From Deltaproteobacteria bacterium (lineage in GTDB: Bacteria; Myxococcota_A; UBA796; UBA9615): a stretch of 49,405 nucleotides of DNA. The notes beneath the pieces are model-generated. The model was not told where the DNA came from, ran no database searches, and saw only the letters and a list, made by a program, of their open reading frames with translations. Made by a program: the position numbers and the translations under genes. Below are positions 39,245 through 49,240 of the stretch, piece by piece (the stretch's first letter is position 1; the number at the start of each line of letters is the position of its first letter). Where the stretch lies: contig PBPL01000203.1 in the NCBI GenBank assembly GCA_002724675.1, positions 1 through 49,405 on the forward strand. The letters are read 5' to 3'.

Positions 39245-39811
39245 TCAATGGTCGCCTTCAGTGAGCTCCTCAAGGGTGACCAGGGAGTGTAGCTCCATGC
39301 CCCGCTCGGCGAGGAACTCTCGGGCACCCTCTTGGCGGTCTACGACGGTGATCACAGCCACGACGTCCAGGCCTTCGCTGCGGCTTCGCTCCACAGCCTT
39401 CCAGGCCGAGCCGCCGGTGGTGCTGGTGTCTTCTACGATGGCCACACGACTCCCATCGGGCAGATTCTTGCGGCCCTCGAGGTATTTCTGCGTGCCGTGT
39501 CCTTTGGCCTCCTTGCGTACATAGAAGGCGTGGAGTGGAGACCCACCATCGACGAACGAGAGCACCGAAGTGGCTGTTGCAATGGGATCAGCGCCCATGG
39601 ACAGACCACCCACGCCCTCCACGTCCCCGGGCAGGTCTCGGAGGAGCCGCACGAGCAGGCGACCGATTAGCGTCGCCCCTTCGGCATGCAGGGTCGTCTG
39701 CTTGCCATCGACGTAGAAGTCGCTCTCCCGACCTGAGGCCAGAACAACTTTGCGACGTTCGTAAGAGAGCTCTCGGAGGAGCTCAATGAGTCGGGTCTTG
39801 TCGGTATCCAT
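39245..39811 (-). CDS. pyrE: Orotate phosphoribosyltransferase
   Basis: A 188-residue type I phosphoribosyltransferase making OMP from orotate and PRPP in de novo pyrimidine synthesis. Seen are SGRESDFYVDGKQTTLHAEG, GGLSMGADPIA, FYVRKEAKGHGTQK (flexible catalytic loop) and the PRPP loop VAIVEDTSTTGGS. The start lies 12 bases after the CheY-like receiver gene on the same strand, so the two are probably co-transcribed despite unrelated functions. Together with upp at 18104 it gives both de novo and salvage routes in this window. Confidence 0.93.
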   Translation of the reverse strand: MDTDKTRLIELLRELSYERRKVVLASGRESDFYVDGKQTTLHAEGATLIGRLLVRLLRDLPGDVEGVGGLSMGADPIATATSVLSFVDGGSPLHAFYVRKEAKGHGTQKYLEGRKNLPDGSRVAIVEDTSTTGGSAWKAVERSRSEGLDVVAVITVVDRQEGAREFLAERGMELHSLVTLEELTEGDH

Positions 39812-39823
39812 CCTCGGGATGGC

Positions 39824-40192
39824 TCAGATGTCGAGACCGAGAATGCGCAGCTTCTGGGCGATGATGTCGCCGGTGAAGGGCTTCACGATGTACTCGTTCG
39901 CGCCAGCATCCATGGCATGCGCGACACGCTGGATTTCACTCTCAGTGGTGACCATCATCAGCATCACACCGTCGTTGGAGCTGTCCTGCCGGACAGCCTG
40001 GACGAACTGAAGCCCGTCCATGTTCGGCATGTTCCAGTCCACCAGTACGATGTCGATGTCAGCGTGTTCTTTCAGCCGCTCTAGGCCTTGATAGCCATCG
40101 GCTGCTTCCACACATTCCACGGACAGGGGTTTCAGGATCCTCTTCAGGATTGCCCGTGTCGCGCGCGAGTCGTCGAGGATCAGTGCCTTCAT
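39824..40192 (-). CDS. Single-domain response regulator (CheY-like)
   Basis: A 122-residue stand-alone receiver. Acidic pocket residues Asp7/Asp8 (LILDDSRATR), phospho-acceptor Asp52 (VLVDWNMPNMDG), the Thr/Ser position in MMVTTESE and Lys in YIVKPF are all present. There is no output domain, so it must act through protein contact, as CheY or PilG/PilH do. The ATG at 40192 has GGAG with 8-base spacing; an upstream ATG at 40210 is rejected. Its partner kinase is not adjacent. Confidence 0.92.
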   Translation of the reverse strand: MKALILDDSRATRAILKRILKPLSVECVEAADGYQGLERLKEHADIDIVLVDWNMPNMDGLQFVQAVRQDSSNDGVMLMMVTTESEIQRVAHAMDAGANEYIVKPFTGDIIAQKLRILGLDI

Positions 40193-40311
40193 CTCAGCAG
40201 CTCCGGCCATCGCCGTTGGGCGATCGCCTCTGGAGTGGAATATCTACCGTTTTCTTGGGGACCCTGTCTACCCCCTGACCACTCTCAGACACGAGGTTCA
40301 TGCCCAAGACG

Positions 40312-41607
40312 TCATCGATTGGCGCTTCCCATCATCTTGCCCAGGGTCTGAACGATACCCAGAATTTCCCGCTCAGTGACCATTCCACAGATGCGTTCTG
40401 TGTTGTCGTCGATGACTGGTACCGCGCCGATGTCTCCCGAACCGCTGTTGTACAGAAGCTCAGCGACCTCAAGCCAGCGGGTCTCAGACCCTTCGGCGAT
40501 GGGGTCTTCGGTCATGGCGGAACTGATCTTGTAGTTCAGCGCCGCTGCACATGCTTTGTCCTGTGTGTCGACGAGAAAGAGGTTGTCGAGAAATTTTTTC
40601 TCTTCACCGCGACGAGCGATCATTTCGGGTTCGGGAGGTGGGAGGTTGCTCGCAATGTCGTAGTCCGAGATCAAGCCCACCAGTTCGTTCTTGTCGATCA
40701 CAGGGATGTATCTGATCTCGTTTTCTTGCATCAACGCGATAGCGCGACTGATGGGGTCATCGACCTTCACGGTGATGGGCTGCTCTCGCATGATGTCAGC
40801 GACCTTCACCATGGCCGAGTCCAGCAGAATCTCAGTGGGAAGGCTGCCCTTTTGGCCCCGCATGACATCCATGATGCGGACGCCCTTAGGTCGCACGTTT
40901 CGGGCTCGACGGAGCGACTCCATACGAACAAAACAACTGATGAGCTCGCCCTTTGTCACCAGCCCGATGAGAGTTCGGTCCCCATTGGCCTTGGTGGTCA
41001 CTACCGGTAGCGAGTCGAGATTCTGCTCGAATAGGATCTCGACGGCTGTGTGGATGGAAGTGGACGGCTCCACAGTCGACACGTCTCGGCACAGTCGAAT
41101 CAGGGCTGCGAGCCCCTCGTTCAAGAAGGCATCATCTCGATCTGTCTGGGCTAGCGTCCCCACGTTGGCCGAAAACATACGGGCAACCAGTCGCTTGGAG
41201 ACCATGCCCACGAAGTGCCGCTTGAGGATGACGCCCTGCTTGTTCTTTTCTTCATCAACTACGGGGACATCCTGAACACCGTGCTTCTGAATGAACTCGC
41301 GTCCATCGCGGATCTTGTCGTCCATGGTCAGGTATTCGGGCGCTTCACTCATGACATCGGCGACGGTGTGGACGTACCGAAAAAAAGCATCCTTACCGTC
41401 GTAGAGGCAATTCACCACCTCCGACAGCCGAACGGAGGACCGCTCAATCTGAGGAGGTTCGTCGGCAGCCGGTTGTTGTGCGGCCTGTTGTGGCCTTGCT
41501 GCTTGGGCAGGTCCCTTTGCCTGCCCACCAGGTCGCCGAGGGCCGCCGCCACCAGGTCGACCTTGGCCTCCTGGTGCACCCTGGGGTGGGCCTTTCCTAC
41601 CGAACAT
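40312..41607 (-). CDS. Multi-CBS-domain protein with Pro/Gly/Gln-rich N terminus
   Basis: A 431-residue cytoplasmic protein. Residues 1-~52 are a low-complexity Gly/Pro/Ala/Gln tail (GGQGRPGGGGPRRPGGQAKG). The rest contains about six CBS motifs, hence three Bateman modules: TVADVMSEAPEYLTMDD, DVSTVEPSTSIHTAVEIL, VADIMREQPITVKVDDPISRAI with EIRYIPVIDKNELVGLISDYDI, and ISSAMTEDPIAEGSE ending IGAVPVIDDNTERICGMVTERE. CBS pairs bind adenine nucleotides and act as energy or second-messenger sensors. No catalytic domain is attached, so it probably regulates a partner. The ATG at 41607 has AGGAG 8 bases upstream. Confidence 0.85.
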   Translation of the reverse strand: MFGRKGPPQGAPGGQGRPGGGGPRRPGGQAKGPAQAARPQQAAQQPAADEPPQIERSSVRLSEVVNCLYDGKDAFFRYVHTVADVMSEAPEYLTMDDKIRDGREFIQKHGVQDVPVVDEEKNKQGVILKRHFVGMVSKRLVARMFSANVGTLAQTDRDDAFLNEGLAALIRLCRDVSTVEPSTSIHTAVEILFEQNLDSLPVVTTKANGDRTLIGLVTKGELISCFVRMESLRRARNVRPKGVRIMDVMRGQKGSLPTEILLDSAMVKVADIMREQPITVKVDDPISRAIALMQENEIRYIPVIDKNELVGLISDYDIASNLPPPEPEMIARRGEEKKFLDNLFLVDTQDKACAAALNYKISSAMTEDPIAEGSETRWLEVAELLYNSGSGDIGAVPVIDDNTERICGMVTEREILGIVQTLGKMMGSANR

Positions 41608-41721: not shown

Positions 41722-42591
41722 CTAGCAGCTTTGGCTCAGCGCATCCGTCTGGTCGCGAAGCCAGGACGAAATCGCCGTGAGAACAGCCTCGCTGTCCGGG
41801 CCGTTGTGGGGCTCATGGTAGGCCTCAGGCCATCGGCTGATGTCGACTCGGCCTTTCGGAAGCTGTTGCGCGAAGTGGTCGCTGACTGCTGGCGAGCAGA
41901 TCTGGTCTTGATCACCAATGACCCAAAGGGTTGGTACCTGGACATCCCGAGCCCGGCCATTGACGTGGTCCATCGCAGCGAGCAGCGAGGTGTACCATCG
42001 GGTGCTCACGTGGCGGTGCACCAGTGGGTCGTTCACATAGGCTTGAACGGCCTGCGGATCCCGCGACAGGTGGTCGGTGTTTAGCTCGTTGTCCATCCGG
42101 AGCCGTGGCAGCAGCCGTGCCAGGGCCCGTCCTGCGAAAAGCTTGGCGGCTGGTGCCTTGACGGCGAGGCCCAGACACGGGTTGCTCAATACCGCACCCG
42201 AGAGCCCAGCCTCTGGTCGCTCGATGAGGTACTGCAGAGTGAGCAGTCCGCCCATGGACTGGCCGATCAGGAAGCAGGGCAGGTCCTTGCCGTGTGTCTC
42301 TCGAAACGACTCGATCACATGGTTCATGTCGCCTGTGTATTGGGAGAAACCGTCCACGTGTCCGCGCAGTCCGCTGCTGCGGCCGTGTCCACGGTGATCG
42401 GCCCCTCGCACGGCGCAGCCCATGCCGCTGAGCTTGTCGGCGAGGTGCTCGTAACGTCCCGCGTGCTCTCCCAGACCATGGACGACCACTGCCAGTGCTT
42501 TGGGGCCGTCGTCTCCGTTGACGGACCAGTCTCGTACGAAGAGCCGAGTTCCATCCGGCGCAATCAGTTCGCTCTCAGTTGCTGTGGTCAT
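41722..42591 (-). CDS. Alpha/beta hydrolase, monoacylglycerol lipase / lysophospholipase-like
   Basis: A 289-residue cytoplasmic serine hydrolase. VVVHGLGEHAGRYEHLADKL is the family oxyanion region, GADHRGHGRSSG is characteristic of monoglyceride lipases, and the nucleophile elbow GQSMGG gives Ser112. Asp229 (VIGDQDQICSP) and His259 (EAYHEPHN) complete the triad. The expected reaction is release of a fatty acid from a monoacylglycerol or lysophospholipid. Its ATG overlaps the stop of the transporter permease (ATGA) and has GGAGG upstream, so it is the last gene of the TRAP operon; the in-frame start at 42999 lies inside the permease gene and is rejected. Confidence 0.88.
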   Translation of the reverse strand: MTTATESELIAPDGTRLFVRDWSVNGDDGPKALAVVVHGLGEHAGRYEHLADKLSGMGCAVRGADHRGHGRSSGLRGHVDGFSQYTGDMNHVIESFRETHGKDLPCFLIGQSMGGLLTLQYLIERPEAGLSGAVLSNPCLGLAVKAPAAKLFAGRALARLLPRLRMDNELNTDHLSRDPQAVQAYVNDPLVHRHVSTRWYTSLLAAMDHVNGRARDVQVPTLWVIGDQDQICSPAVSDHFAQQLPKGRVDISRWPEAYHEPHNGPDSEAVLTAISSWLRDQTDALSQSC

Positions 42592-44975
42592 GGAGGAGCC
42601 TCCAGGGGAATCGGTGGGGTGGCGATCACCTCGGGAGGCACCTCCACTAGAGCCAGGCTGAACCAGGGGAACCAGGAAATCAATGCCAGCGAGAAGAGCA
42701 TGAGCAACGTGAATGGAATCACGCTGCGTATGACCTGAAGTATGGAGCGATCGAACACGCTGCTGGCTACGAACAGGTTCAGGCCTAGGGGCGGTGTCAA
42801 GTAGCCGATCTCGAGGTTGACGATGACGATGATGGCGAAGTGAATGGGATCGATGCCGTACTTCATCGCGATGGGCGCGAGCAGGGGAGCCACAATCAAG
42901 ATGGCGCTCATGATGTCCATCATGCATCCCAGGAGGAGCAGGAAGATGTTCACGAGAATCAGGAACTGCACGCGACTGTCCACGTGGGCCTTGACCCAAG
43001 CTGCCGCCTGAGCCGGCACATCCGCACTGATGAGGAACTTGTTGAAGGCGATCGCCAACACAATGATGAGCATCAAGCTGCCCATGATTACCGCCGAGTC
43101 CCGGAATACTCGGGGCAACTCGCGTGGGGAAAGCTCGAACAGCGGTTCATCCAAGCCTCGGCCTTGGCGGCGCCCGAACCAGCGCAAGGTGGGATGGATG
43201 GCGAACTCAACCACCAGTGCGTAGACAACGCTGATGGCGGCCGCTTCGGTGGCGGTGAACAGGCCTGAGTAGATGCCACCAATAATCAGTAGTGGCAGAC
43301 CAGCAGCCCAGATGCCGCGAGTGAAGGTGCCGGGCAGTGAGCCCAAGGTCTCGCTGACCGGCAGCATCTTGTCGCGCTCCTTGAACACCGACCAGCCAAT
43401 CAGGACGAAACCGATGAGGAATCCGGGCAGGATGCCTGCGATGAAGAGGTCTCGGACGGTGGGCGCGGAGCCCGTGGCTTCCGACACCACCGACAGGTCC
43501 GAGAAACAGACGACCGCGTAGATGATCATCGGGATGGAGGGTGGAATGAGGATCCCCAGCGAGCCCGCAGAGGTCAGCAGCCCCAGGGAGAAGCGTTCAT
43601 CGTACTTTGCGTTAATTAACGCCGGCACCATGATCGAGCCAATGGCGATGACCGTCACCGGCGACGAGCCAGAGATGGCCGCGAAGACCATGCAAGAGAG
43701 CACGCCTGAGATGGCCAAGCCTCCGGGGAACCAGCCCACAACAGACTTCGCCATGTCAATCAGGCGCTGCGCGATGCTTCCTTCGGTCATGATTGCCCCG
43801 GCCATCACGAAGAACGGGATGGCCAGCAGGACTTCCTTGTCGGAGGCGGTGTAGAGGTCGCGAACGACCAGTGTCAGGTCGTCTCCTTCCAGCAGATAGA
43901 CACAGAGTGCGGCACCCGTTCCGATGACCACGAACAGGGGTGTCCCAGCCAGCATGAGCAAGAATGTGCAGACGACAATGAGCCACATCTGGGAGAACCA
44001 GAGGCCCAGGAGCAGTCCTACGAGCAGTCCCGGCAGCAGTCCGGCCAGCACCATGTCCCGGCCCCCAGCGTCGCCTGGATTCTTGCGCATGTGTCGAGCA
44101 GGGATGTCGTCTAGGTCGATGTCTGTTTTGCGACCACCGAAGAAGAGGCCGGCGAAGCGGAGGGCCATTAGCAAGAAGGCAACGGGAAGGACGAGCTCGG
44201 CCACCCATAGCTTCAGGCCGTTGCGCGCGATGGTGACGGCAATGCCTTCCTCCATCATCCACTTGTAGTACTCGGGGTCTTCGAAGTGCTCAGGCTTGAC
44301 CCACCCATCGAGCAACCAGGAAAAGAATGAGTTCAGCCAGCGGGTGACAGTCTCGGGAACCGTCACCTTGGCGAGACTCTCGTTGAAGAAGTGCTTCTTG
44401 ACGACCGCCACCGAGGCTTTGAACAACTGCCAGCTAAAGATCGTGGCCAGCAACATCGAGATTCGGTACAGCAGGCGGCTACCCTTGGGCGAGAGCGCTC
44501 GATCCGCGGCATCAATGGCCAGATGCTTCCCGTCCCGGGTCGCCAGGCTGGAGCCCAGGAAGGCCACCCACAGCATCATCAAGAGGGAGAGCTTGACCGG
44601 GTCTGCGATCTCTAGGCTAAAGCTATCGGACTCGCGATTGACGAAGTCGAGGAAGACGAGGCCTGTCATTCCCAGGGTGGCGACGAAGATAATGGTGGTC
44701 TCGAGCCGGTCGAGAGCCCGATCGAGCACGCCCAGGGTCTTGGCCACGTAGTGGTAGATGCCGCTGACCAGCAGGATCAGTAGAAAAATGACTCGCAGCA
44801 GCATGATCTGCCGCAAGAAGTCCTTGAAGCCCTGCCAAACAACCGTCCAGACTCGGCCCAGCTGGTCCAGTGGCCGAAACAGATTGTCCAGGAATTGAGT
44901 CAGCCCTGCACGAGCCTTGTCATCGGCTCCGGCGGAGCCCTTCGTGGGCAGCGGCGGTTGTCCGCCTTCGGTCAC
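42588..44975 (-). CDS. TRAP transporter fused QM permease
   Basis: A 795-residue inner-membrane protein. An N-terminal amphipathic stretch and the DctQ-type small subunit (~55-290, with DFVNRESDSFSLEIADPVKLSLLMMLWVAF as a recognisable segment and a ~60-residue extra loop KHFFNESLAKV...EEGIAV) are joined to the DctM large subunit (~320-780). The latter has AIPFFVMAGAIMTEG, MVFAAISGSSPVTVIAIGSIMVPAL, GSLGILIPPSIPMIIYAV, TATEAAAISVVYAL and IVNLEIGYLTPPLGLNLFV, all family signatures of ion-coupled acid uptake. The GTG start overlaps the solute-binding gene stop (GTGA). Fused QM chains also occur in TatT-associated TRAP systems. Confidence 0.9.
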   Translation of the reverse strand: MTEGGQPPLPTKGSAGADDKARAGLTQFLDNLFRPLDQLGRVWTVVWQGFKDFLRQIMLLRVIFLLILLVSGIYHYVAKTLGVLDRALDRLETTIIFVATLGMTGLVFLDFVNRESDSFSLEIADPVKLSLLMMLWVAFLGSSLATRDGKHLAIDAADRALSPKGSRLLYRISMLLATIFSWQLFKASVAVVKKHFFNESLAKVTVPETVTRWLNSFFSWLLDGWVKPEHFEDPEYYKWMMEEGIAVTIARNGLKLWVAELVLPVAFLLMALRFAGLFFGGRKTDIDLDDIPARHMRKNPGDAGGRDMVLAGLLPGLLVGLLLGLWFSQMWLIVVCTFLLMLAGTPLFVVIGTGAALCVYLLEGDDLTLVVRDLYTASDKEVLLAIPFFVMAGAIMTEGSIAQRLIDMAKSVVGWFPGGLAISGVLSCMVFAAISGSSPVTVIAIGSIMVPALINAKYDERFSLGLLTSAGSLGILIPPSIPMIIYAVVCFSDLSVVSEATGSAPTVRDLFIAGILPGFLIGFVLIGWSVFKERDKMLPVSETLGSLPGTFTRGIWAAGLPLLIIGGIYSGLFTATEAAAISVVYALVVEFAIHPTLRWFGRRQGRGLDEPLFELSPRELPRVFRDSAVIMGSLMLIIVLAIAFNKFLISADVPAQAAAWVKAHVDSRVQFLILVNIFLLLLGCMMDIMSAILIVAPLLAPIAMKYGIDPIHFAIIVIVNLEIGYLTPPLGLNLFVASSVFDRSILQVIRSVIPFTLLMLFSLALISWFPWFSLALVEVPPEVIATPPIPLEAPP

Positions 44976-46012
44976 GGGGTGCTCTTGCGAAACTCGGCCA
45001 GAGCGGCATAGACGGCATCGAGGAGGTCTCCGCCGACGACCTGCCGGAACTCGCTGTGGATCGTGCGAGCCTTGGCGATGATGGGCTTCAGTTCCTCTTC
45101 GCTCGGCTCGTGGACCTGGACATCCATGTCCTTGAAGTTGGCAATCAACTCGGGCTCAAGCTCTCGGACGAGTCGTCGGCCCAGCTTCTGGTCTTCCAGG
45201 CGGTTTCCATTGACGATCTTCTGGAGATCTTCGGGTAGCGCGTCGAACCAGGTCTTGCTGTAGACGATGGCTGCTGGCTGGAAGATGTGACGAGTAAGGC
45301 TCAGGTGGTCGACGGGCTCGAACCAGCCTGACGCTTGGGCAAAGAGAGCCGTATTGTCGAAGCCGTCGACGGTGCCGCGAGAGAGGGCGTCCAAGACTTC
45401 TGCTGTGGACATGGCGAAGGCCTGGATACCCAGCGCCTTGTACATGGCCTTGTGCACATCGCTTTCCTGGGTACGCATCTTGTGCGACTGCAGGTCAGCG
45501 AGGCTACGAACGGGCTTCTTCGTATAGAAGGAACGCCACCCATTCTGAGCCCACATGGACATGTGGATCCCGCGTCGTCGCAGACGCTTCTGCATGGGCT
45601 CGAACAGAACGGTGTCGAGGACGTGGTCAGCCTCAGCGTTGTTTCGGAACAGGTACGGGAGCTCGGGAAGGTCGAGCTCGGGGACGTTGGCTCCCGTCGC
45701 GAGAGCCGAGGTGGTGAAACCGCCACCCTGGAGCCGACCTCCGTCGCGGATGTCCTGGATTTGCTCGACTTCTCCTCCGAGCGCGCCGCCTGTGAACAGC
45801 CGCACCTTGATGCGGCCATTGGACTCCTTCTCCACCCGCTTCTTGATGTCGACCAACTGGTCGCTCCACGGTGTGTTGTCGGGCGCTACAGTCCCGAAGT
45901 TCAGAGTGAACTCGGGCTGTTGAGAGGTGGCGTCGCCCGGGGCCAGCAGGAAGGCACCAGCCATGAGTAGGGCTGGTGCAGCGCAGAACATAACTCGCAA
46001 GGAAACACGCAT
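44972..46012 (-). CDS. dctP: TRAP transporter solute-binding protein (DctP/TatP-like)
   Basis: A 346-residue periplasmic binding protein with a signal peptide (residues 1-~30). Family features are FTLNFGTVAPDNTPWSDQL, FTGGALGGEVEQIQDIRDG, LPYLFRN, and SHKMRTQESDVHKAMYKALG with Arg180 at the position that pairs with the substrate carboxylate in most TRAP receptors. AMSTAEVLDALSRGTVDGFDN and FQPAAIVYSKTWFDALPEDLQ follow. A carboxylate ligand is therefore likely; a long-chain fatty acid fits the neighbouring lipase and acyl-CoA synthetase but is inferred. The ribosome site AGGAG precedes the ATG. It lies 38 bases after tatT. Confidence 0.9.
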   Translation of the reverse strand: MRVSLRVMFCAAPALLMAGAFLLAPGDATSQQPEFTLNFGTVAPDNTPWSDQLVDIKKRVEKESNGRIKVRLFTGGALGGEVEQIQDIRDGGRLQGGGFTTSALATGANVPELDLPELPYLFRNNAEADHVLDTVLFEPMQKRLRRRGIHMSMWAQNGWRSFYTKKPVRSLADLQSHKMRTQESDVHKAMYKALGIQAFAMSTAEVLDALSRGTVDGFDNTALFAQASGWFEPVDHLSLTRHIFQPAAIVYSKTWFDALPEDLQKIVNGNRLEDQKLGRRLVRELEPELIANFKDMDVQVHEPSEEELKPIIAKARTIHSEFRQVVGGDLLDAVYAALAEFRKSTP

Positions 46013-46050
46013 CGTCGCTCCTATGGATGAAGTGGTCGCTGGTTCCTGGG

Positions 46051-46986
46051 TTACTCAGCGAAGAGGTCGTCGATGCGGGCGAGGAAGGCCTCTGCCTTCT
46101 TCTTCTCCGCGTTTTGCTCGGGTGTCATCTCGGCTAGCACATCGGAGGGGGTGTCCACCACGTGCTGGAGGAGGGACTTGAAGAGCTCCCGGTCCTGGGT
46201 CTTGATCGCGTAGGTGTCCGCGTAGAGCACATAGGTGCCGAAGTACTCCGGGTTCATGGCCTTGGCCTTCTCGAAGTGCTCCTTACTCTTGGTCATGTCC
46301 CCGCCAGCAAAGCCGGGTGCGACCGCGTAGAAGGCTCCCCAGTAACGCACCGGGCCGGCATAGAATGAAGTCTCGTCCAATGCCAGGCAGTGGCTCATCA
46401 GCTTGGCCACATAGCCCTTGTACTTGACCAGGGTGGAGAAGCCCTGGCTTCGTGCCCACTTGCCCAGGTTGGAGGCCGTCCAGTAGATGGCCATCTGGTC
46501 ATCTTTTTGTAGCGAAGACACCGCGTCGGCGAGCTTGTCGCCCTTGTCGAGCCGTGCCTGGAAAGCGGAGTCCGCGGCCATCGCCCGCTCTCCGTAGGTT
46601 ACGCCAGCTTCAAAGAGTGGGGCCTTCGCCGCAGTTAACCGCTTGGTGTGATCATCTGCGGGCTCCGCCTCGACCTCGGTGTAGGCGTCGGCCATGAAGT
46701 AGTGGGCGCGGGACAGCAGGACTAGGGCCTCTTGGTGCTTGGGCTCGGAAGCGACGACCTGCTTCAGGGCATCGATGGCCTTCTGGAGACCGTCCTTGGT
46801 ACCTCGCTCGTTGGTCCAGAGTGTCTGTGCCAGTTCGAAGCTAACGCTGGCCTCTTTGGTTTCACTCTGCACCCCGGAAATGCCGCTCGTGTAGGTCTTG
46901 CAACCCGACAGGATGACCGGAATGACGATGGACGCAGCGATGATGATGCTGAGCAGTCGTAGAGTGGCGAGTGGGGACTGGGGCAT
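46051..46986 (-). CDS. tatT: TRAP transporter T-component lipoprotein (TatT family)
   Basis: A 311-residue lipoprotein with lipobox ILSGC, lipidated Cys29. The body is helical with TPR-like repeats (ALKQVVASEPKHQEALVLLSRAHYF and HFEKAKAMNPEYFGTYVLYADTYAI), and segments MAIYWTASNLGKWA and GGDMTKSKEHFEKA typical of the TatT family defined from Treponema pallidum Tp0956. There the T component associates with the solute-binding protein of a TPR-associated TRAP (TPAT) system. Gene order T-P-QM here is the same as in that system. AGGAG lies 7 bases before the ATG. It heads the operon. Confidence 0.87.
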   Translation of the reverse strand: MPQSPLATLRLLSIIIAASIVIPVILSGCKTYTSGISGVQSETKEASVSFELAQTLWTNERGTKDGLQKAIDALKQVVASEPKHQEALVLLSRAHYFMADAYTEVEAEPADDHTKRLTAAKAPLFEAGVTYGERAMAADSAFQARLDKGDKLADAVSSLQKDDQMAIYWTASNLGKWARSQGFSTLVKYKGYVAKLMSHCLALDETSFYAGPVRYWGAFYAVAPGFAGGDMTKSKEHFEKAKAMNPEYFGTYVLYADTYAIKTQDRELFKSLLQHVVDTPSDVLAEMTPEQNAEKKKAEAFLARIDDLFAE

Positions 46987-47025
46987 GAGGTTCTCCTGGA
47001 GCTTGAGCGGGTCGGCTCCGGGCTT

Positions 47026-47051
47026 GTGAGCACCTCAGGGGGAGGCCTCAC
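47026..47051. promoter_or_regulatory. Imperfect inverted repeat in the tatT leader
   Basis: GTGAG/CTCAC (47026-47030 and 47047-47051) plus inner CCTC/GAGG form a bulged hairpin 40-65 bases upstream of the tatT start, in the 169-base gap after the acyl-CoA synthetase stop. It could be an operator or the end of the upstream transcript; no U-run follows on the minus strand. Confidence 0.3.
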
Positions 47052-47155
47052 ACTGCTCCGGGGACCGGGCGCGGAGTGTACCCGAGCGCCGGCTCTGGTC
47101 AAGAGGGGGCGATGGGTTGGGTCCGGGGAACGGACAGTTCGAGCAGGTCGAACAG

Positions 47156-49240
47156 CTATGGGCTGTAGTCGGCTCGGAGCACCCGCCGCATGACCTTGTT
47201 GGAGGCGGTCCGGGGTAGGGAGTCCATGATGACCACGTCGTGCACCTTGAACAGTGGGTTGAGGCGCCCTCGGATCGCCTGCTGGGCGGCTTGCTTCAAC
47301 TCGGTGACAGCGGATTCCTGGTCGTCCTCCAGCACCATGAAGAGAACCAACTGACCGGGCCCCCCGCCCTGTGGAGCGACGGCGATAGCCGCAGTCTCCC
47401 GAACGGTTGGTAGTTCATCACAGAGGCGTTCGATCTCTTTGGAACTGGTCTTGATCCCGCCCAGGTTCATCGTGTCGTCAGCGCGACCATGTGCTCGGAA
47501 GTAACCCCCGGGGAGTTGCTCCATTTGGTCGCCGTGACGCCGTAGGACCTGGCCCTCGGGGCCGCGTGGCATGGCGTTGAAGTACACCTCGTCGTGGTCG
47601 CGATTCAAGAGCCGGTTGGAGGAGCCGAGCATGGGGGCTACGAGGGCGAGTTCTCCGTTTTGGGTGCGCTGGCCCTCGTCATCGAGGATCACCAGGTCAC
47701 AGCCGAGTGCGGGGGTGCTAAATGTGGATGGGGCCTGGCTCTGGACCATCGAGCCACAGATGTAGCCGCCCCCGATCTCAGTCCCCCCGCAGTACTCGAT
47801 GATGGGCTTGTAGCCAGCTTGCGACATCAGCCACAGCGAGTCATCGGCGTTGGAAGCCTCTCCCGTCGAACTGAAGCATCGGATACTCGACCAGTCGAGG
47901 CCCTGAAGGCAGCGCTGGGAGCGCCACGCCCGCACGAGAGAGGGGACCACCCCCAGCATCGTCACTCGGGCGTCCTGCACAAATCGAGCGAACGCGACTC
48001 CGGTCGGTGCACCCTGGAACAAGGCTATGGCTGCGTCGTTGAGCAGCGCTGCGTAAATCAACCAGGGCCCCATCATCCAGCCGAGGTTTGTTGGCCACGC
48101 GACGACGTCGCCGGGCCGGATGTCATGGTGCGCCCAGCCGTCTGCCGCCGCCTTGATGGGTGTGATGTGAGTCCAGGGGATTGCCTTGGGCTCGCCAGTC
48201 GTACCTGAAGAGAACAAGATGTTGGTAGCCGTCTCTGCTGGAACTCGAGCGGGGAGGTAAGGAGCATTGGAGAGGGGGGTGCTGGCGAGGAACTCGGACC
48301 AGGAACTGTCCGTGGGCCGGAGGTCGACTGCAAGGGTGTCGGACGCTGAAGTGACGATCGCTAGCGGTGCCTCGGCTTCCACGAGGCGCTGATACAGCGG
48401 CAGGGTTCGGCCGCCCCTTAGGATCACATCTTGAGTAAAGACGGCGCTGGCCTTGGAGATGCGCATTCGGGTTGCGATCTCTTCGGCGGCAAAGCTGTCG
48501 GCGATGCCCACTGCGGTAGCACCCGACAGGACGATTCCCAGATAAATGACCACGGACTCCACCGTCATGGGCATCGCGATGGCGATGGCGTGTCCTGGTC
48601 CGAGTCCCCGGGCTGCAAGAACTCGGGCAACGTGTTCGCTGCGGGAACGGAGCTCGGACCGACTGACGGTCTGAAGGGGTCCGTCGTCGGCCTGCCAGAT
48701 GATCGCTGCTTCTGCGGGGTCGCGATTCACGAAGCAACTCTCGGCGATGTTCAAGTGCATTCCGGGCAACCAACGCGCCTTCGCGGGCCCGTCTGTGACG
48801 TCCAAGATGCAGCTGGGTTCCACAGGTGCTTGAATCTTCAAGGCACGAAGCACAACGGACCAGTAGGCCTCGGGCTCTTCCACGGACCAACGGTGAAGCT
48901 GGTCATACTCCCGGGCCTCGAGCAGCGGACCTAGGTTGCTCGCAGCAGTCTCTGCATTCGTCGGGATCCATGCAGGGGCAGGGGGCTCTTGTGTGGAACG
49001 CTCGCGGTAGATCCAGTCGAACAGGGCTCTGTGAACTGTGTGGGGCAGGCTGGAGTCGAGCATCGTGCGGGAGAGGCGGCTCCATGCCTCCTCCGCACCA
49101 TCCGTCTCGTCAAGGCATAGAACCAGTCGTCGTAAGAAATCCGACGCCTCTTCTTGGGGGACACCAAGCTGGACGAGCGAGCCTTCAGTCAACGGGTTGG
49201 TAGGAGCCGTTTTCGTGGAACTATTGGAGTGGGTCGACAT
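47156..49240 (-). CDS. Acyl-CoA/acetoacetyl-CoA-synthetase-like AMP-forming ligase
   Basis: A 694-residue ANL-superfamily enzyme that activates a carboxylic acid with ATP and CoA. A ~165-residue helical N-terminal extension precedes the acetyl-CoA-synthetase-type domain. The ATP loop SSGTTGEPK is at 344-352; IEYCGGTEIGGGY gives the adenine/Mg motif, RADDTMNLGGIKTSSKEIE the hinge, and PRTASNKVMRR near 680-690 carries the catalytic lysine. The extension and the WPTNLGWMMGPW segment resemble the acetoacetyl-CoA-synthetase and plant AAE17/AAE18 group rather than short acetyl-CoA synthetases. It lies upstream of the TRAP-lipase operon on the same strand, so an imported fatty acid is a plausible substrate. 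Confidence 0.85.
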   Translation of the reverse strand: MSTHSNSSTKTAPTNPLTEGSLVQLGVPQEEASDFLRRLVLCLDETDGAEEAWSRLSRTMLDSSLPHTVHRALFDWIYRERSTQEPPAPAWIPTNAETAASNLGPLLEAREYDQLHRWSVEEPEAYWSVVLRALKIQAPVEPSCILDVTDGPAKARWLPGMHLNIAESCFVNRDPAEAAIIWQADDGPLQTVSRSELRSRSEHVARVLAARGLGPGHAIAIAMPMTVESVVIYLGIVLSGATAVGIADSFAAEEIATRMRISKASAVFTQDVILRGGRTLPLYQRLVEAEAPLAIVTSASDTLAVDLRPTDSSWSEFLASTPLSNAPYLPARVPAETATNILFSSGTTGEPKAIPWTHITPIKAAADGWAHHDIRPGDVVAWPTNLGWMMGPWLIYAALLNDAAIALFQGAPTGVAFARFVQDARVTMLGVVPSLVRAWRSQRCLQGLDWSSIRCFSSTGEASNADDSLWLMSQAGYKPIIEYCGGTEIGGGYICGSMVQSQAPSTFSTPALGCDLVILDDEGQRTQNGELALVAPMLGSSNRLLNRDHDEVYFNAMPRGPEGQVLRRHGDQMEQLPGGYFRAHGRADDTMNLGGIKTSSKEIERLCDELPTVRETAAIAVAPQGGGPGQLVLFMVLEDDQESAVTELKQAAQQAIRGRLNPLFKVHDVVIMDSLPRTASNKVMRRVLRADYSP

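Follow-up and report, generated by a model that had tools for sequence, protein, structure and literature searches.

A TPAT-type TRAP transporter locus with an apparently conserved alpha/beta-hydrolase partner in a deltaproteobacterial metagenome-assembled genome

TPR-associated TRAP (TPAT) transporters combine a DctP-family receptor and a QM permease with a T-component lipoprotein, and few ligands of T-component transporters are known. The TPAT of Treponema pallidum consists of the lipoprotein TatT (Tp0956), the receptor TatP(T) (Tp0957) and the permease TatQM. A TatT-DctP complex that aligns pore and cleft is known from this organism, and a TPAT model with hydrophobic or lipid cargo has already been published (PMC5812351), so cargo of this kind is not a new idea for TPATs. 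The arginine conserved in DctP receptors confers carboxylate selectivity, and Tp0957 has alanine at this position together with a hydrophobic pocket (Fischer et al., PMC4646407). BstC, a T-component of Methylococcus capsulatus from the same superfamily as TatT, binds sterols and lipids (PMC10942540). Here we describe a TPAT locus in a 49,405-nucleotide stretch of DNA (the window), which is contig C165 of G000, a deltaproteobacterial metagenome-assembled genome of 4.8 Mb that is 90% complete; genomes, contigs, loci and families are cited by our own labels (G, C, L and f). The locus encodes a TatT, a DctP receptor, a fused DctQM permease and an alpha/beta hydrolase. We read it as a TRAP importer of the TPAT type that has a cytoplasmic esterase of its own and, most likely, a lipid-like carboxylate as ligand, and we give this reading about an even chance of being right.

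An earlier note on the window had placed five genes on one strand, and profile searches confirmed each of them at the positions given there, in the order ligase, tatT, dctP, fused dctQM and hydrolase on the minus strand. The gene tatT (46051-46986, minus strand) encodes a T-component lipoprotein of 311 aa (PF16811, E=1.6e-34), dctP or tatP (44972-46012, minus) a TRAP substrate-binding protein of 346 aa (PF03480, E=3.3e-63), and dctQM (42588-44975, minus, GTG start) a fused small and large TRAP permease of 795 aa (PF04290 and PF06808). The monoglyceride-lipase-like hydrolase (41722-42591, minus) has 289 aa and matches PF12146 at E=5.9e-71 and 239 bits. The overlaps of four bases claimed for the receptor/permease and permease/hydrolase junctions were found as described: the dctP stop and the dctQM start share 44972-44975, and the dctQM stop and the hydrolase start share 42588-42591.

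TatT has a signal peptide with the lipobox LSGC (Cys29) and scores 119.9 bits against PF16811, for which the cut-off is 26.5. Its nearest solved relative is 8g52 (E=5.6e-38, 35% identity, TM 0.76-0.84), an entry titled 'Crystal structure of a bacterial TPAT family transporter' in the PDB and released, as 8g52/8g53, in 2023. The best fold matches of its AF2 model (pLDDT 90.2) were 8g52, T. pallidum TatT (4di3/3u64) and BstC (7t1s). A PF16811 lipoprotein is thus encoded alongside a DctP-family receptor and a DctQM permease, and by profile, phmmer and fold the locus belongs to the TPAT transporters, as had been claimed. It shares with the T. pallidum system the T-component lipoprotein, whose fold is matched by that of the window TatT (3u64, 4di3), the DctP receptor and the QM permease; the window operon differs in having a hydrolase added. 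BstC has a related fold (7t1s), but it is a smaller protein and has been described with BstA and BstB instead of a TRAP permease. The match to 8g52, together with the fold match to Tp0956 and to the sterol binder BstC, makes a lipid-type ligand plausible.

The hydrolase has the Hydrolase_4 fold with the Ser-Asp-His triad of the monoacylglycerol lipase family (PF12146). The triad that the earlier note had described as intact consists of Ser112 (in GQSMG), Asp229 and His259, and it is invariant in 19 aligned sequences. The closest solved relatives are the monoacylglycerol lipases 6qe2 and 7p0y (PDB); the likeness to this group, which includes the human and Mycobacterium tuberculosis MGL, is one of sequence, and the nucleophile motif GQSMG of the window protein differs from the HSMG of most relatives. 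A signal peptide was not found: the window protein has no hydrophobic N-terminus, and its orthologues begin directly at the domain. This suggests that the hydrolase would act in the cytoplasm on an imported molecule, and a model with a secreted lipase is disfavoured.

Profiles of the window genes were run against neighbourhoods reaching up to 20 kb, taken from relatives of G000 and from 80 named loci of the genome collection; whether a named locus belongs to the class was judged from the TatT tree. The closest named relative found for G000 is Deltaproteobacteria bacterium UBA6601, and many other records in the class carry the names Deltaproteobacteria or Myxococcota. Three arrangements were observed. 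In the first, tatT, dctP, fused QM and the hydrolase follow one another, mostly with pyrE next (families f1, f3, f5, f8 and f9). In the second, found in f7 and G006, the order is tatT, hydrolase, pyrE, and dctP-QM is absent from the locus. The third, found in Myxococcales, Bdellovibrionota and Planctomycetota, has tatT, dctP, Q and M without the hydrolase. The hydrolase was present at 39 of the 46 short-type loci within the class, compared to 0 of 28 short-type loci outside it for which 5 kb or more of downstream sequence was available (Fisher p=3e-14), and in 38 of the 44 genomes with tatT compared to 4 of the 12 without it (p=0.0006; 58 relatives, two ambiguous ones excluded), where the tests ignore kinship among loci related by descent and the p values are not true probabilities. 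In a second phylum, represented by only two genomes (L150 and L216), a TatT-DctP-aldehyde ferredoxin oxidoreductase (AFOR)-MGL-type hydrolase cassette was found in which Arg180 of the receptor is kept. The cassette lacks pyrE, and a DctM permease was not detected in either of these small genomes, whose completeness is unknown. This cassette is the best evidence for a functional tie of the hydrolase to TatT and DctP. Collectively, these results bear out the expectation that the hydrolase is conserved beside tatT in relatives; it looks like a conserved partner of tatT in an old pairing that recurs in another phylum.

The DctP receptor has a hydrophobic, signal-like N-terminus and keeps both Arg160 and Arg180. 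In alignment, Arg180 occupies the position of the canonical TRAP arginine, which agrees with the earlier description of this residue as retained. The window receptor thus differs from the Treponema type, in which the arginine is replaced, as by alanine in Tp0957 (PMC4646407). Among the short-type TPAT receptors examined, Arg180 was kept with or without a hydrolase at the locus, the exceptions being L042 and L045. These two loci, in family f1, represent a third kind of TPAT receptor, in which Val or Ala replaces the arginine and which is accompanied by a distinct TatT. Since hydrolase-free short-type TPATs also carry it, Arg180 was rejected as a marker of hydrolase-linked TPATs. The Treponema-like long-type TPAT receptors of the class have F, Y or W at this position, and the arginine thus appears to separate short-type from Treponema-type TPATs. 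G000 holds both kinds, the window locus with Arg180 and L051 on contig C137, which has Phe and is of the Treponema type; a hydrolase of the window's family was not found on contig C137. Because one genome carries both kinds of receptor, no single ligand can be assigned to all TPATs, and the earlier proposal that TPAT transporters could be given a ligand class from this locus fails, in the form in which it was made, on the Treponema-type receptors without the arginine (Ala in Tp0957; F, Y or W in the relatives). Ligand conclusions for one kind of TPAT receptor are therefore not transferable to the other. The permease, with 17 hydrophobic segments, matches 9pym and the SiaT permeases.

In the mechanism that we propose, a promoter immediately preceding tatT would probably drive the joint transcription of tatT, dctP, dctQM and the hydrolase gene. 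TatT, as an anchored lipoprotein of the periplasm whose pore is hydrophobic, would take up an amphipathic molecule and, by analogy with the T. pallidum TatT:TatP complex, may hand it to DctP. DctP would grip the carboxylate via Arg180 and deliver the molecule to the ion-driven QM permease. In the cytoplasm, the hydrolase would cleave an ester (or thioester) bond, either of the imported molecule itself or of the first product made from it. The combination of the carboxylate-binding Arg180, TatT and an internal hydrolase points to a lipid-like carboxylate as the most likely ligand, for example a fatty acid or an acylated hydroxy acid. In G000, the ligase encoded upstream may activate the released acid. 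A wider generalisation is possible but doubtful: hydrolase-linked TPATs may form an import-and-cleave system for carboxylate-bearing lipid esters that was assembled at least twice, once in the class and once, with AFOR, in the second phylum. TPATs would then be of two chemical kinds, arginine-bearing and arginine-free, able to coexist in one cell.

The AMP-forming acyl-CoA ligase (47156-49240, minus, 694 aa; PF00501, PF16177 ACAS_N and PF13193) belongs to the acetyl/acetoacetyl-CoA synthetase branch. It shares the ACAS_N domain with both of these families, its closest, but falls far below their NCBIfam cut-offs, with 194 bits against 520.9 for TIGR01217 and 232 against 725 for TIGR02188, and is therefore a member of neither equivalog. 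It also differs from them in an N-terminal extension of ~100 residues and in a Gly that aligns with the acetate-limiting Trp414 of Salmonella Acs; Gly at this place should widen the acyl pocket. The ligase was found in 4 of 58 relatives and in 11 of 379 members of the phylum. Within the class, it lies near tatT in all four resolvable cases: directly upstream on the same strand in G000 and G005, and within ~2 kb but on the opposite strand, beyond guaB, in G034 and G328. In G036 the sequence ends at a contig edge. The 169 bp between ligase and tatT contain a promoter candidate for tatT, TTGACC-16-TACACT (47075-47102, minus), that is recognisable across five genomes of the family. Alignment of the five shows an invariant CTTG in the -35 element, an invariant GTA and CTC on either side of or within the -10 region and an invariant CGCG after it, and the promoter-like sequence is kept with or without an upstream ligase. 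Because the ligase is rare, because the promoter-like sequence lies downstream of it and because guaB intervenes in G034 and G328, the ligase is not a defined part of the system. It was rejected as an operon partner on distribution, promoter-like sequence and synteny, and the earlier view of it as a system member conserved beside tatT did not hold. Judging by its distribution, it is probably a separate unit outside the conserved system, although a frequent enough neighbour where it occurs. Five f3 genomes have a true acetoacetate-CoA ligase in the slot beyond guaB near tatT. These ligases were rejected as independent support for a link between ligase and tatT, as they persist in f3 genomes without tatT, beside guaB (G015) or an rpl3-like gene (G009, G014 and G029).

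A de novo neighbour search returned mainly housekeeping genes (guaB, nadB, aminopeptidase P and an rpl3-like gene). Several observations weigh against the reading of the locus as an importer with its own esterase. An old chromosomal block runs class-wide in the order rpl3-like, [ligase], guaB (divergent), tatT, [dctP-QM], hydrolase, pyrE, pepP and nadB, where brackets mark genes that vary. The hydrolase is also tightly linked to pyrE, its housekeeping neighbour across the class. Hydrolase-pyrE pairs are kept in two genomes that gave no confident short-type tatT (G032 and G053) and in G013, whose tatT lies on a separate contig; conversely, the f3 genomes G016, G017 and G035 have tatT without the hydrolase. 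Because the hydrolase-pyrE pair persists without or away from tatT, part of the hydrolase-tatT linkage is inherited chromosome order. Taken further, the hydrolase would simply belong to the old block of guaB, tatT, hydrolase, pyrE, pepP and nadB, and the importer would work without it. We consider this unlikely, as tatT and the hydrolase remain neighbours where pyrE is elsewhere (the f1 genomes G002, G004 and G005) and in f7 even though dctP-QM is missing from the locus, their presence in genomes is correlated, and the pairing recurs without pyrE in another phylum.

The receptor also permits a different ligand. The best folds for the AF2 model of DctP (pLDDT 92.8) were classical DctP receptors whose ligands are sugar acids and other carboxylates, and the nearest DctPs by both fold and sequence take small polar acids, for instance sugar acids, which again counts against a lipid-like ligand. 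The imported molecule might thus be a small acid or a short acid in ester linkage, with acetoacetate, 3-hydroxybutyrate oligomers and acylated sugar acids as examples; the hydrolase would cleave it and the acetoacetyl-CoA-synthetase-like ligase would activate the product. The retained Arg180 and the acetate/acetoacetate branch of the ligase fit such a scheme, as do the true acetoacetate-CoA ligases near tatT in the five f3 genomes, and an ester with a free carboxylate would suit both the receptor and an internal hydrolase. We nevertheless judge it distinctly improbable: hydrophobic pores or lipid binding are known from relatives of TatT (PMC5812351, PMC10942540), the enzymes most similar to the hydrolase are monoacylglycerol lipases, and the acetoacetate ligases of f3 remain where tatT is missing. 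The least probable account, to which we give very little weight, is the full route proposed in the earlier note, in which a lipase frees fatty acids that the TPAT takes up and the ligase converts to acyl-CoA, the whole forming a single system. The five genes do share one strand in the window, the ligase adjoins tatT in G005 and is close to it in G034 and G328, and the Gly in place of Trp414 would admit acids longer than acetate. However, the order of steps misfits a hydrolase without an export signal, and the ligase is rare rather than conserved, is separated from tatT by the latter's own promoter-like sequence and, in G034 and G328, stands on the opposite strand beyond guaB.

Zhai et al. (ChemBioChem 2023) reportedly found that the TatT proteins behind 8g52 and 8g53 prefer long-chain fatty acids. 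If so, the idea of a fatty-acid ligand is already published, and the new part here is the hydrolase pairing and the two kinds of receptor; a hydrolase pairing is not known from that work. A conserved intracellular hydrolase offers a handle on the ligand, in that a soluble enzyme open to assay should accept the ligand of DctP, or something made from it, as substrate. The division into arginine-bearing and arginine-free receptors likewise says which receptors to try with acids and which with neutral lipids.

The arrangement in f7 had been considered as a TatT system free of a transporter, a view that was softened by the finding that a single DctM is encoded elsewhere in nearly all f7 genomes and, in most of those read, has a separate-clade DctP next to it. 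Such a separate-clade DctP, with or near DctM and away from tatT, was seen in f7, G006 and two f3 genomes (L167, L168, L170, L171, L172, L173, L178 and L179), and it may be either a replacement or an old paralogue. A search of 20 genomes for the outer-membrane fatty-acid channel FadL gave a clear match in most of them. In G000 the match was below threshold, at 20 bits (G000:C213:14646-15308), and FadL may be missing or divergent in this genome, which is 90% complete.

Past the hydrolase, the same strand continues (39245-41607) with a protein of four CBS domains (40312-41607, minus), a response-regulator protein with a lone receiver domain (39824-40210, minus), both identified by profile search, and pyrE (39245-39811, minus; TIGR00336, 131 bits over the cut-off). 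This pyrE is the only strong match in G000, as elsewhere there is one strong match per genome, and it was on this ground rejected as a clue to orotate transport. Among the relatives, the CBS-domain and receiver proteins were found between the hydrolase and pyrE only in G000 and in G001, which represents a sister genus.

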